Of a DNA stretch of 64,000 nucleotides, positions 2,845 through 56,409 are shown one piece after another. Where the stretch lies: the NCBI RefSeq assembly GCF_900111875.1, contig NZ_FOJU01000004.1, forward strand, positions 310,001 through 374,000, in the 5' to 3' direction. A program made the translations under genes and the position numbers. Every line of letters starts with the position of its first letter. Within the stretch, counting starts at the first letter, position 1. This DNA is from Poseidonocella pacifica (GTDB taxonomy: Bacteria > Pseudomonadota > Alphaproteobacteria > Rhodobacterales > Rhodobacteraceae). The notes beneath the pieces were generated by a model. That model had not been told where the DNA came from. It ran no database searches and saw only the letters and a program-made list of their open reading frames with translations.

Positions 2845-3170
2845 GACCCGGCGTCCAGTTCCCGGGCCAGGAAGCGTTCGAACGCGTCGAGGTTGATCGG
2901 TTCGAACTGCCCAAAGCCCTGCATCCAGACAGAGGCATCGCGAAGCGCATCAGGCTCCAGCTTGCACCACTTCACCCGCCCCCGTTTCTCTTGGGTGATG
3001 AGGCCCGCGCGGGTTAGTATCCCGAGGTGCTTGGAAATGGCGGCCAAAGAGATCTTGAAGGGTTCCGCCACATCCGTGACGGCCATGTCATCCTCCAGCA
3101 GCATCGACAGGATCGCGCGGCGGGTCGGGTCGGCGAGGGCCGCAAAGACGGTGTCGAGATCGTCGCTCAT
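2841..3170 (-). CDS. ArsR-family regulator (SdpR-like)
   Basis: A 109-residue winged-helix repressor. The DNA-binding part is plain (DPTRRAILSMLLE, then EPFKISLAAISKHLGILTRAGL). No CxC metal-binding pair is present in the recognition region, so it resembles the non-metal ArsR/SdpR-type regulators often found near START-domain proteins, though no such partner lies here. The internal ATG at 3170 is chosen because it opens directly into the domain. A perfect palindrome lies 31 bases upstream at 3201-3216, suggesting autoregulation. The minus-strand promoter shares the intergenic region with the atp operon promoter. Confidence 0.88.
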   Translation of the reverse strand: MSDDLDTVFAALADPTRRAILSMLLEDDMAVTDVAEPFKISLAAISKHLGILTRAGLITQEKRGRVKWCKLEPDALRDASVWMQGFGQFEPINLDAFERFLARELDAGS

Positions 3171-3200
3171 GCCTCTTGGTGACCGGACCCGCCGCAATCG

Positions 3201-3216
3201 TCAACCATTCGGTTGA
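3201..3216. promoter_or_regulatory. Probable ArsR operator
   Basis: A perfect inverted repeat, TCAACC - ATTC - GGTTGA, sits just upstream of the arsR-type gene. Palindromes of this CAACC/GGTTG kind are typical of ArsR/SdpR-type repressors. It is about 185 bases upstream of atpI, so an effect on the atp promoter is less likely than autoregulation. Confidence 0.55.
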
Positions 3217-3341
3217 ATATGCTCCACGTCGCTTTTGCCCCCCAACATGGCCTGCGACCATTTGGGTGCGGAGGATTGGTTGCGAAGATTTTCGTTTTAA
3301 AACAGTGACCTAGTCTTCGCGTGGGCGCGGCGTCGGGGCGC

Positions 3342-3370
3342 TTGACTCGGTCCCCCCCCGCGCATAGCAC
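3342..3370 (+). promoter_or_regulatory. Candidate promoter of the atp (F0) operon
   Basis: TTGACT at 3342-3347 is followed, after a 17-base spacer, by TAGCAC at 3365-3370. This fits a housekeeping sigma-70 type promoter with a weak -10 element and would start the transcript about 25 bases before the atpI ATG. It is a pattern match only. Confidence 0.4.
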
Positions 3371-3401
3371 TAGCGCCAACCAACCCGTGGGGCAAAGAGA
3401 C

Positions 3402-3761
3402 ATGGCCGACCCGCGCATTGATGAGCGCATGGCCGATCTGGAGGCGAAGATCGCGGCCGCGAAAGCCGCGCAAGCGCCAACGCCACGCGCGGATGAACAC
3501 TATTCTCAGGCGAACCTTGCCTGGCGGATGGTGACGGAACTTGTGGCCGGTCTTGGGATCGGTTTCGGCATCGGATACGGGCTCGACCGGTTTTTCGGCA
3601 CGACTCCCTTTCTCATGGTGCTGTTTATATTTTTGGGCCTCGCCGCCGGTGTCAAAACGATGATGCGGAGCGCGCAGGAGGTGCAGGAGAAACTGGCGGC
3701 TGAGGCCGCAGAGGACAAGAGGGCCGGGGCGCATGGCGACGGAAACGACGGGACACGCTGA
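3402..3761 (+). CDS. atpI: ATP synthase protein I (AtpI)
   Basis: A 119-residue small membrane protein, first gene of the F0 operon. A charged, alanine-rich N-terminus is followed by two transmembrane segments (about residues 42-62 and 68-88, including [17 protein letters not shown]), as in the AtpI/AF1Q family that helps assemble the c-ring. The ATG at 3402 is preceded by AAAGAGA. The gene overlaps atpB by 29 bases in another frame, which suggests translational coupling. Confidence 0.9.
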
Positions 3762-51570: not shown

Positions 51571-51956
51571 TCGCAAGCTGAATGCCCAGAAAACCACTCT
51601 AAATTCAGACTGTTAGGCAAGTCTTGCCGCGCTGGTCGCCGCGTCTGTGCGCATGGACCGAAGCGCCGCATTCTCGCAGTGCGCGCATCCCTCCGGCTTC
51701 GGCCGCGATTCCAGCGGCGCGTTGCTGCGTTGATCACCGCCCATTGGGCCCGCCCCACGGAACGGGAGCAATCACGCGGCAAAATGCTATCCCAATCGCC
51801 CTGAATGGGCCTTTTCGGGCAAAGGTTCATCCCGCCCCCGCACTCGCGGATCCCGGCGCCGGCGGGCAATTACGCGCCTTTATCTATACGAATTAGAACG
51901 TGAATAAATATTTAGATTTCATTAACCTAAGTCCTCAGTGTTGTTTTGAGGATTCT
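51571..51956. other. Intergenic stretch upstream of the hybrid kinase
   Basis: 386 bases without a supported gene. The last 80 bases turn strongly AT-rich (51880-51945), which suits a promoter for the kinase; TATCTATACG-type sequence near 51880-51890 could hold a -10. No T-rich terminator follows the tRNA. Open frames antisense to the tRNA are artefacts. Confidence 0.4.
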
Positions 51957-54506
51957 ATGTTCGCGTCCATTTTCCAAGGCCTCACATCGCTTTTGCTGGC
52001 CGGGGCCTTCTTTTACGCCATCCTCGTCGCAGACTGCCTGCGATTCCGGCGGCGGGCGCAACAGGTACTCATCGGGCTGGTTTTCGGCGTGCTCGTGGTT
52101 TCGCTGTCCATGACGGCGTATGTACTCGAACCCCGGGGCGTGCGGCTCAATGCGATCGCTGGCCCGCTTGTCTTTGCGGGCTATCTGGGCGGCCCTTTGA
52201 GCGGATTTCTGGCCGGGACGATCGGGGCCATTTTCTCGCTTTCCAAGGGTGGGCCAGTTCCCGTCGTCGGTGTCTTCATGCAATTGGCCATTCCTACTGT
52301 CGGGATGCTCGTCGCCTACCTGCGCCCGCCTGCGAACTGGCCGATGATACCGAAACGCGCCATTCCTCCAATCATCATCGGGTTTCTGACGCTCTTCATC
52401 TTTCCAATCCTCTATGTCGGGTCCTCCTTTCCGGGGGGTGGGGGCTATTTGACGGCGGCGCGGTCTGCGCTGATCTTCATGGGTGTCGGCATACTCTCCA
52501 TTTTCGTGACGTGGCAAATCCTCACCTACGCCACGCGTTTTGCATTCGATTCCGCGCGCGCCGCAGAATTGTCGCGGCGGTTGGATCTGACGCTTCGCCA
52601 TTCCGGGATGGGGATGTTTGAGCGGACGGTAGGGGAATCGGACGTATATTTCGATGCGGGCATGGCCGCGGCCTATGGGCTGGATATCAAGCCGGGGATG
52701 GTGCCGATGTCCACGTGGGCCGCGCTGATCCACCCTGACGATCTTCCCACATTGCAAGCTGAATTCGCCAAGGCCGACTCCGGCGAGCGGGAGCGCGACC
52801 GCATCGATTTCCGTATCATCCGCACGGATGGCGACGTGCGTTACATGCGGGCACACTGGGTCGGGGGTGGCCTCAGGGATGGCAAGCCAACCCGCGTGTT
52901 CGGGGTACAGGCCGACCTGACCGACATCCGCGCGTCGGAGCGGCAGCATCGTGAAACCGTCGACCGCATCGCCGTCATCGCGGAAAACCTGCCCGGCGTG
53001 ATGTTCCAGTCCGACGTGACGGACCGGAACAATACCAAGCTGTTGTACGTCAGCCCCAAGTGCAAAGAGATATGGGGGTATACCGACGAGGAAATCTATG
53101 CCGATCGCGGCATCTTTGCCCGGTGCCATGATCCCGAGGATCTGCCGCGTTTCTACAAGGCGATGAGCCAAAGTGTTGAGACGGGCAAGAAGGTCACGCA
53201 CCGGTTCCGCATCACCGCGCGCGATGGCACCGTTCGTTGGCTCGACTATCACGGCGCCAGTTCCACCAAGAATGGGCGCGTTCTGCTTGAATCCATCGTG
53301 CTCGACGTGACCCGAGAGGTTGCCGTGCAGGAACAGGTGGAGAAGGAACGCGAAATCTCCTACCGCGCCCAGAAATCCGAGAGCATCGGCATGCTCACCG
53401 GCGGGGTAGCGCATGATTTCAACAACCTGCTCGCGGTGATCCTCGGCAATCTCGAACTGCTCAGCGATGAGAACGATCCGGAGATGAAAGCCCGCCTGAT
53501 CGGCGCGGCAACGTCGGCAACCATGCGGGGCGCCGACCTGACCAAAAGCCTGCTCGCCTTTGCGCGCAAGGCGCGGCTCAAACCGGAGGTGCTGCATCTC
53601 AACACGGTGGTGAGTGAGGCCAAGAACTGGATGGGCCGTGCCCTGCCAGAGAGTGTTGCGGTGGAAACCTCGCTTTTGGCCGGGCTATGGCCGATCAAGG
53701 TGGATCGCACCTCACTCGAAAGCGCGCTGCTCAACCTGATCCTGAACGCCCGCGATGCGATGGACAACGCCGGCAAGCTGACAATTGAGACCTCCAATGT
53801 CCGCATCGATCAGGCCTATGTGGATTCCCGACAAGAAGAAGTCCCGCCGGGGCGCTATGTCATGCTCGCCGTCAGCGACACTGGCTCCGGAATCAAGGAG
53901 GAGGATATTGCCTCCATCTTCGAGCCATTCTTCACCACCAAGCCCCAAGGGCTGGGCTCGGGTCTTGGCCTGTCGATGGCCTTCGGATTCGTGCGTCAAT
54001 CGGGGGGAACGATCCAAGTCTATTCCGAGGTGGGCGAGGGCACGAGCTTCAAGCTCTATTTCCCGGTCGCCGAAGATGCCGATGTGAAACCCGCCGGGAC
54101 TGGCCGCGCGCCAAAGCCTGCCGTCGGAACCGGCAAGCGGATCCTTCTGGCCGAGGACGAAGATCCGGTGCGCGAAACTCTGGTGACCATCCTTGAACGC
54201 GCAGGCTATGACGTGACGCCCGCGATGAATGGCGATCACGCCTTTGCCCTCTTTGAGGCCGATCCGACATTCGATCTCTTGCTGACCGATATCGTCATGC
54301 CGGGGGAGCTTCAGGGCACGCACCTCTCCCGCGCCGTTCGGGCAATCAGGGATGATCTGCCCGTCGTCTTCATGTCCGGATATGCGAGCGAAGCCACGGT
54401 GCATGGCAATGGGCTTCGCCCAGAGGATATCCGCCTGATGAAACCCGTCCAGCGCGAAGACCTTTTCGCCGCCTTGTCAAACGCGGTCCGTCGCAACCCT
54501 GACTGA
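51957..54506 (+). CDS. Hybrid histidine kinase with LytS-type membrane sensor
   Basis: An 849-residue membrane kinase. The N-terminal 5TM-5TMR-like region (about residues 1-190; GPLSGFLAGTIGAIFSL, YLGG) is followed by two PAS domains (about 210-330 and 345-465), a HisKA-type domain with His486 in GGVAHDFNNLLAVILGNLE, an HATPase (SDTGSGIKEEDIASIFEPFFTTK) and a C-terminal receiver with Asp778 (LLLTDIVMPG). ATG 51957 follows GAGGA at good spacing; the 57-base longer frame is unlikely. The partner regulator is not adjacent. Confidence 0.92.
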   Translation: MFASIFQGLTSLLLAGAFFYAILVADCLRFRRRAQQVLIGLVFGVLVVSLSMTAYVLEPRGVRLNAIAGPLVFAGYLGGPLSGFLAGTIGAIFSLSKGGPVPVVGVFMQLAIPTVGMLVAYLRPPANWPMIPKRAIPPIIIGFLTLFIFPILYVGSSFPGGGGYLTAARSALIFMGVGILSIFVTWQILTYATRFAFDSARAAELSRRLDLTLRHSGMGMFERTVGESDVYFDAGMAAAYGLDIKPGMVPMSTWAALIHPDDLPTLQAEFAKADSGERERDRIDFRIIRTDGDVRYMRAHWVGGGLRDGKPTRVFGVQADLTDIRASERQHRETVDRIAVIAENLPGVMFQSDVTDRNNTKLLYVSPKCKEIWGYTDEEIYADRGIFARCHDPEDLPRFYKAMSQSVETGKKVTHRFRITARDGTVRWLDYHGASSTKNGRVLLESIVLDVTREVAVQEQVEKEREISYRAQKSESIGMLTGGVAHDFNNLLAVILGNLELLSDENDPEMKARLIGAATSATMRGADLTKSLLAFARKARLKPEVLHLNTVVSEAKNWMGRALPESVAVETSLLAGLWPIKVDRTSLESALLNLILNARDAMDNAGKLTIETSNVRIDQAYVDSRQEEVPPGRYVMLAVSDTGSGIKEEDIASIFEPFFTTKPQGLGSGLGLSMAFGFVRQSGGTIQVYSEVGEGTSFKLYFPVAEDADVKPAGTGRAPKPAVGTGKRILLAEDEDPVRETLVTILERAGYDVTPAMNGDHAFALFEADPTFDLLLTDIVMPGELQGTHLSRAVRAIRDDLPVVFMSGYASEATVHGNGLRPEDIRLMKPVQREDLFAALSNAVRRNPD

Positions 54507-54531: not shown

Positions 54532-54570
54532 CCGTGCGCGCCGTTAATCCGGCCCGACCGCGCGAAGGGA

Positions 54571-54610
54571 GTCATACAAATGTCATACGCGAGTCATACG
54601 CCTGTCATAC
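54571..54610. repeat. Four-copy GTCATAC array, 11-bp period
   Basis: GTCATAC occurs at 54571, 54582, 54593 and 54604, each exactly 11 bases apart with variable four-base spacers; the base before each copy alternates A, T, A, T. One inverted copy, GTATGAC, lies at 54675-54681. Seven-base units every 11 bp are how PhoB/OmpR-type regulators bind, the Pho box being tandem CTGTCAT units. The array sits between two convergent genes (kinase end 54506, metG end 54697), so the target gene is unclear. Confidence 0.8.
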
Positions 54611-54696
54611 ACGCCGTTTGGCCTGTTTTCACAGGTTAACCCGCCCGTTTCCGGGGGGTGCCGTTCAACCGTGTGTATGACGCTGCGCGCGGTGGT

Positions 54697-56409
54697 TTAA
54701 TCCCGAAGCCCGGAAAACCGCGTCGCCCAATCCTCGCGCTGATCGTCCGTGATCTTGGCAAACAGGGTCTCCGGCACCGTGAAGGCATGACCGGGCGCAA
54801 GGCGGCTCAACGCCGTCTCCATATCCGCCGGCCAACCGTCAGTCTCGACCCCCATGGCCTCCAGCAGCGCGGCTGATGCATCGGGGATGAAGGGTGCCGA
54901 CAACACGGCATAAAGCGGGATGAGGTTAAGCGCCAAACGGATCTGCGCCGCTGCCTGTTCGGGGTTTTCCTTGAAGGTCGACCACGGGGCGGCATCCTGC
55001 AAATACTCGTTCCCAAGCACCCACGCGGCCCGCAGCGCCGCCGCGGCCTTGCGGACCTCGATGGCGTCCATATGCCCTTCATAGGCCCGGACCTGCGCCG
55101 CGATATCGGCAATAAGCTGTGCCTCGCGCGCGCCCAGCGCCCCGCCCGTGGGAACCTCTTCCCCGAACTTGGAACGACAGAATTTGGTCACGCGGCTGAC
55201 GAAATTCCCAAGGACATCAGCAAGATCCTTGTTCACCGAGGCTTGGAAATTCTCCCACGTAAATTCGCTGTCGGAGCTTTCCGGCGCATGGGACAGAAGC
55301 CACCAGCGCCAGTAATCCGCAGGCAGGATCTCCAGCGCCTGATCCATGAAGACACCGCGCCCTTGGCTGGTGCTGAACTGGCCGCCGTCATAGTTCAAGT
55401 AGTTGAAGGATTTGACATAATCCACCAGCTTCCAAGGCTCGCCACTGCCCAGAATGGTCGCGGGGAAAGAGAGCGTGTGGAACGGCACGTTGTCCTTGCC
55501 CATGAATTGCGTATAGCGCACGTCGTCCGCGCCCTTGTCGGTACGCCACCAACGTTCCCAATCCGTGCCCTTGCCCGCATCAACCCATTCCTGAGCCGCC
55601 GCGATATATTCGATCGGCGCATCGAACCACACGTAGAAAACCTTGCCCTCCATGCCGGGCCAGTCCTCTTCGCCGCGCTTGACGGGAACGCCCCAGTCGA
55701 GATCTCGGGTGATCCCGCGATCCTGAAGCCCGTCGCCGTCATTCAGCCATTTCTTGGCGATCGACGTCGTGAGGATCGGCCAGCCCTCGCGGGTATCGAT
55801 CCACTCTTCCAGCTGATCTTTCATCTTCGACTGGCAAAGATAGAGGTGCTTGGTCTCGCGCACCTCAAGATCGGTGGAGCCTGAAATCGCGCTGCGCGGG
55901 TCGATCAGGTCGGTCGGGTCAAGCTGCTTGGTGCAGTTCTCGCATTGGTCGCCGCGCGCCTTGTCGTACCCGCAGTTGGGGCAGGTCCCTTCGATATACC
56001 GGTCAGGCAGAAAACGCCCGTCCGCGTTGGAAAAGACCTGCTTTTCACTGACTTCCCGGATCAGCCCGGCCTCGGCCAGACGTCCGGCGAAATGCTGTGT
56101 GAGCTTCTGGTTCTGCGGCGAGGACGAGCGCCCGAAATGGTCAAAGGACAGGCGAAACCCCTCGGCGATCCGGGCCTGAACTTCGTGCATTTCGGCGCAG
56201 TATTCGGCTACCGGCTTGCCCGCCTTGGCGGCGGCAAGTTCCGCCGGCGTGCCATGCTCGTCGGTGGCGCAGAGGAACATGACCTCATTGCCGCGCCCGC
56301 GCTGATACCGGGCGTAAAGATCGGCAGGCAGTTGAGAGCCGACGAGATTTCCGAGGTGCTTGATCCCGTTGATATAAGGGATCGCCGAGGTGATGAGGTG
56401 TCTGGTCAT
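54697..56409 (-). CDS. metG: Methionine-tRNA ligase
   Basis: A 570-residue class I synthetase. The HIGH-like motif is HLGN (KHLGNLVG, residues 18-24), and zinc knuckles are [17 protein letters not shown]. The KMSKS position reads FSTSQG, a weakened form I recall from this clade. Anticodon-binding helices occupy about 400-560; the C-terminal tRNA-binding domain of longer MetRS is absent. It ends inside a region of repeats. Confidence 0.94.

Follow-up and report, generated by a model that had tools for sequence, protein, structure and literature searches.

Four GTCATAC units stand at exact 11-bp steps between two convergent genes of Poseidonocella pacifica, and the question raised by this locus is which factor reads such a row and why the row lies where both flanking genes end. 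The locus belongs to a window, i.e., the whole stretch of 64 kb that was analyzed, which comprises positions 310001-374000 of contig C6 in the 3.62-Mb genome (G000:C6:310001-374000). The original prediction had compared the row with the tandem sites of PhoB/OmpR-family regulators. That the units form a tandem site, phased with the helix, for a DNA-binding protein acting as an oligomer is supported by the present analysis, which points to a protein of another family than the one initially suspected.

The focal array and its relatives in the P. pacifica genome

The following features were identified in the window:

54571-54577, 54582-54588, 54593-54599, and 54604-54610, plus strand: four GTCATAC units in exact 11-bp steps, the candidate operator array
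54675..54681, minus strand: a single inverted unit, seen in the sequence as GTATGAC on the plus strand
54533..54570, plus strand: flank that recurs at a sister copy and contains the repeated ..GTTAATCCGGCCCG.. motif
51900..54506, plus strand: ORF for a PAS/histidine-kinase/receiver protein, named from sequence reading
54697..56409, minus strand: ORF of metG, coding for methionyl-tRNA synthetase

The four units, their location between two convergent gene ends (54506 and 54697) and the inverted copy at 54675 were all found as originally described. The array follows the end of the PAS/histidine-kinase ORF by 64 bp and is separated from the metG stop by 86 bp. The inverted unit forms, together with the last direct unit, a longer imperfect inverted repeat (GTCATACAC... 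/ ...GTGTATGAC). Within the 64-kb window, the two-unit pattern was matched three times, always inside the focal array, compared with 0.09 matches expected from shuffled sequences. The sister copy is located at G000:C6:235629-235705 and is 86% identical to the focal site over 78 bp. The pair of the PAS/kinase ORF and metG was not found to be shared with other genomes: relatives keep metG, but the gene downstream of it varies and the order after metG is not conserved.

A search for the array elsewhere in this genome and in relatives had been proposed with the original prediction, and the 11-bp spacing indeed recurs in the genome and is conserved in relatives. In total, 27 such arrays were identified in the whole P. 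pacifica genome, about one per 130 kb, and the reversed pattern yielded almost none. Their 97 units are invariant at five of seven positions and vary slightly at the other two. The step between neighboring units is 11 bp in 59 of the 70 pairs, in 17 arrays a direct unit is preceded at 12 bp by an inverted one, and about a dozen copies share the tail ggctaagcccctgaaaagtgg. The base in front of the units had been described as alternating between A and T, which is true locally (A, T, A, T) but not as a rule. It is A or T in 91 of the 97 units (47 A and 44 T, with C or G in 6) and the four spacer bases are free; the strict alternation at the focal array is a local accident.

GTTAA words are found beside many arrays, among them the focal array. 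At five loci (L036, L037, L039, L055, and L056, near 1530-1550) the stop codon of the neighboring gene is a TAA inside the conserved array tail (ggcTAAgcccctgaaaagtgg), as if the element supplied the end of the gene.

Conserved positions and genus-specific cores in Rhodobacteraceae

The GTCATAC arrays are patchily distributed among genera. The three-unit pattern was found in none of 100 sampled relatives, one congener included, and of 395 genomes of the family only two others carry dozens of pairs and ten carry one or two. A relaxed search (TCATAY) brought in the genomes G237, G382, G224, G391, and G110.

Other genera possess 11-bp arrays at several of the same gene borders, built from the cores CATATG, GTGCAC, GTCGG, GTCTTC, and ATGCACA (border genes were named by reading the sequences). 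The gap between rpoA and rplQ contains a GTCATAC array in P. pacifica and a CATATG 11-bp array in G020, and the first five CATATG arrays taken from G020 and G014 were all located at borders with an array in P. pacifica. An array at the gltD border is common to P. pacifica, G020, G237, and G382, none of which had been found by way of gltD. In many genera, reading of the sequence after the gltD stop revealed 11-bp arrays of GTGCAC, ATGCACA, GTCGG, GTCTTC or GTGCTT. The distance between array and stop is conserved at gltD, and the next gene is variable. Just after the gltD stop, the autocorrelation at lag 11 reached a z of 5.4 in 69 genomes, from which those with known arrays had been left out, and was the strongest among lags 4-30, compared with a z of 1.0 for the control stretch 100-187 nt downstream of the stop. 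After rpoA, the lag-11 signal was absent across the family, so the rpoA spot is not family-wide.

In different genera the rpoA-rplQ gap (L219-L246) is occupied by unrelated hairpins or REP-like repeats (GTAGGGTGCG type) and therefore seems to attract palindromic elements as a hot spot. Streptomyces, Prolixibacteraceae, and other groups contain perfect 11-mer arrays, which were set aside since they look like ordinary minisatellites. AT-rich Bacteroidales (L061, L063, L064, L098, L104, L106, and other loci) carry many dispersed 11-bp GTCATWC arrays with variable spacers and, in some cases, inverted arms, perhaps a comparable but independent system. An array resembling gtGTCATACcgttgtGTCATACctgtGTCATACttgtGTCATAC is common to Firmicutes and two viral contigs (L077, L078, L087, L164, and L165), and several of its copies directly follow a terminator-like stretch.

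A BrnA_antitoxin-family protein as candidate reader of the arrays

When array-adjacent genes were compared, a single one with a DNA-binding product recurred next to arrays of several genomes, and it codes for a solo ribbon-helix-helix (RHH) protein. In P. pacifica a single gene of this type was detected in the genome, outside the window:

G000:C9:263387-263809: gene of the solo RHH protein

The protein consists of about 130-140 amino acids and shows the pattern RVTLRV..DV.KFFR..G.GYQ.R.N.VL. Matches to PF14384 (BrnA_antitoxin), a family of RHH proteins, scored 58.7 and 48.8 bits compared with a gathering cut-off of 26.1, and the domain was matched in all 11 RHH proteins scanned. Homologs were detected in 19 of 30 chosen genomes with one divergent sequence as query; with this single query none was detected in the array-bearing genomes G020, G391, G110, and G049, several of which are fragmented assemblies. 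Most of the RHH genes are preceded by an 11-bp array whose core is that of the array after gltD in the same genome. In P. pacifica and Phycocomes this array is located 56-90 bp upstream of the gene, and the homolog in G186 has no clear upstream array. No BrnT toxin gene was found among the ORF neighbors of 13 RHH genes and 9 neighbor proteins scanned by Pfam, so that the protein looks solo and not like one half of a toxin-antitoxin pair. The nine scanned neighbors include YchF, RF3-like, LepA-like, cold-shock, and ketoacyl synthase proteins, among others, and a ParA-like ATPase was likewise not found among the neighbors inspected (13 genes by ORF, 9 proteins by Pfam). By sequence, no relative with a solved structure was found, and no relatives were confirmed in viral contigs. 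A single-sequence structure model comprises a strand (68-74) and two helices (77-85 and 88-131) with a pLDDT of only 59, too low for the fold to be confirmed or for the fold search, which gave no match, to be informative.

In 10 of 19 genomes the array and the RHH start are separated by a stretch with a GTTAAC word (L371-L391, at most 120 bp upstream), a candidate promoter element or half-site for CtrA. In G121 (L394) a broken copy of the RHH gene with several in-frame stops has an almost identical array upstream.

The match between protein and core was scored by script. The core of the RHH promoter and that of gltD agree perfectly within the same genome in 12 of 14 genomes (permutation p = 5e-6), and perfect matches between genomes occur almost only where the dialect is shared. 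The DNA-reading strand, written as x1-V-x2-L-x3, varies together with the core. Lysine at x1 goes with GG cores in four of four cases (G036, G105, G040, and G121), compared with none of 13 for arginine at x1 (p = 4e-4, relatedness ignored). An Arg1/Leu3 strand has the CATATG core in four of four cases, and asparagine at x2 accompanies the GTCTTC core. In G382 two paralogs differ in this respect, one having RITIRV and a GTATGAC promoter and the other RVTLLL and a CATATG promoter, and both cores occur among the arrays of that genome. By analogy with known RHH structures, the residues x1, x2, and x3 of the strand probably contact the bases. In G237 (L376) a second RHH paralog has its own array with the different core GTACAG, so that two dialects, each with its own targets, may coexist in a genome.

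The cores read at the gltD and RHH loci predicted GTCGG for the arrays of G036 and GTGCAC for those of G113 and G106. Searching the genome of G036 for GTCGG yielded 78 matches in 33 arrays, and palindromic GTGCAC pairs were found 23 times in G113 and 14 times in G106, with zero matches for the reversed controls in all three genomes. P. pacifica has three further array borders in common with G036 (GNAT/chorismate mutase, yajC, and the spot L057), two with G113 (chorismate mutase and spot L041 at purine-nucleoside phosphorylase), and one, lpdA, with G106. By a rough estimate from 3,000-3,500 gaps per genome, about 0.3 shared borders are expected by chance per genome pair. The gltD border was not counted for these three genomes because it had served to pick them.

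Judged from sequence comparison, it is very probable that the focal site serves as an operator array and that its reader is the solo, autoregulated RHH protein of the BrnA_antitoxin family. Directly visible in the sequences are the family of arrays with a core specific to each genome and with conserved positions, the recurrence of this core before the RHH gene and the covariation with the reading strand. RHH dimers would bind side by side along one face of the helix, one on each 11-bp unit, the protein would repress its own gene through the upstream array, and its dimers would also coat about 30 dispersed sites at gene borders.

Array placement and comparison with known systems

Both neighbors could be called for 151 arrays, using simple codon-score gene calls. 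Tandem gaps contain 97 of these arrays, convergent gaps 39 and divergent gaps 15, compared with about 46 expected in divergent gaps from the gaps of the 64-kb window and a congener (p about 1e-7). The arrays lie at a median of 50 bp from a stop and 92 bp from a start, and the orientation relative to the nearest gene is mixed between genomes. Over the 3.79-Mb contig of G036 the arrays show no clustering at the terminus (Rayleigh p 0.64), no replichore-like orientation (p 0.31) and intervals just a little more regular than by chance (p 0.08). A terminus-specific, matS-like arrangement was rejected for G036 on this lack of clustering. The spread without clustering, together with the avoidance of divergent gaps and the closeness to gene ends, argues against a terminus domain and against plain promoter control, and fits protein-bound patches at gene borders.

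For the dispersed arrays an architectural or insulating role therefore seems the most likely one, albeit tentatively: judged by placement, they may be bound patches between transcription units, perhaps with bridging or roadblocking activity. It is somewhat more doubtful, but conceivable, that this amounts to a Rhodobacteraceae-wide architecture or insulation system, in which a solo RHH protein would act on about 30 phased arrays at conserved borders, and protein and arrays would switch dialect together between genera as the positions stay. If this family-wide reading is true, dozens of sites would have been rewritten in concert. The system offers a natural experiment on how the specificity of a DNA-binding protein changes jointly with its roughly 30 target sites, one genome even holding paralogs that differ in specificity, and gives a direct and testable route to a possible chromosome-organizing or insulating factor of bacteria.

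It is rather unlikely that the same RHH protein governs an ordinary regulon, repressing or activating array-adjacent promoters in addition to its own. The array before the RHH gene itself would suit such a regulon, as would the many arrays 30-190 bp upstream of start codons, e.g., of lpdA, yajC, smpB, and proS. However, the divergent gaps, which are the richest in promoters, are strongly avoided, 39 of the 151 arrays are convergent like the focal one, and at gltD it is the distance to the stop that is kept as the next gene changes.

A MITE- or REP-like repeat spreading through the genome, with the protein as its by-product, its driver or as an exploited factor, is an improbable explanation. 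Subfamilies do share sequence beyond the units, such as the common tail and the flank of the focal and sister copies, the distribution among genera is patchy, and REP-like hairpins fill the rpoA-rplQ gap in other genera. Against this, positions are kept across genera despite differing sequences, no associated transposase was found, and the core equals that of the RHH promoter in each genome.

That the repeats work in the transcript, as hairpins at 3′-ends, is very improbable. The inverted units in front of direct ones and the palindromic cores CATATG and GTGCAC could pair, and on the minus strand the wider focal region folds better than shuffled sequences (z -3.4). The focal array taken alone shows no such folding (z +1.7 and +0.8), though, and arrays made of direct units only, including GTCGG in G036, cannot form a hairpin; duplex DNA is indicated by the strictness of the 11-bp step and by the connection with the DNA-reading strand. 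The double Pho box of a PhoB/OmpR-family regulator driving an unannotated RNA, as originally proposed from the 11-bp spacing and the GTCAT resemblance, can be practically dismissed, because only GTCAT agrees with the CTGTCAT-like half-site, relatives, unlike what would be expected of a conserved PhoB half-site, replace the core at the same position by CATATG, GTGCAC, GTCGG or GTCTTC in step with the PF14384 protein, searches of the site for an Rfam family, a sigma-70-like promoter, and an intrinsic terminator were all negative, and no phosphate gene was recognized among the flanking genes inspected.

The operator array of a solo RHH protein can be compared with several known systems. RHH proteins on tandem operators are already known. 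The RHH-containing MatP of enterobacteria has tens of dispersed chromosomal sites, but matS is confined to the terminus, unlike the arrays described here, which are spread without clustering in G036. The DNA-uptake-sequence dialects of Neisseriaceae likewise consist of a genus-specific repeated word near gene ends; these are hundreds to thousands of single words, in contrast to about 30 helically phased arrays. The literature consulted contained nothing relevant on GTCATAC arrays, on DUF4415 or on BrnA in Rhodobacter, and no description was found of a solo BrnA-family protein with genome-wide phased arrays at conserved borders or of such an array set changing dialect in step with its protein.

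BrnT/BrnA is a toxin-antitoxin system of Brucella abortus (reviewed in PMC5086665). The PF14384 domain and the presumed autoregulation at the own promoter are common to both systems, whereas the solo protein has no BrnT neighbor in the genes inspected, continues beyond the domain at either end and would have about 30 dispersed operators. The RHH-type ParB of plasmid pSM19035 binds as dimers to rows of parS heptads, which are direct or inverted and of which several contiguous units are needed for function (PMC9499535). Rows of short direct or inverted units are also the predicted target here, but they are set in 11-bp steps and dispersed over the chromosome, with no ParA seen, unlike the contiguous 7-bp heptads of the plasmid and its ParA. 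Finally, SegB of Sulfolobales is an RHH protein whose partner is the ParA-like SegA; it binds ahead of its own gene cassette and at scattered chromosomal sites, of which there are dozens, these being single 13-bp palindromes, mostly intragenic, with a core well conserved between genera (PMC12284271). The sites described here differ in being 11-bp phased arrays in gene gaps with a genus-specific core and no known partner protein; as with SegB, an RHH protein is predicted to bind before its own gene and at dozens of sites dispersed over the chromosome.
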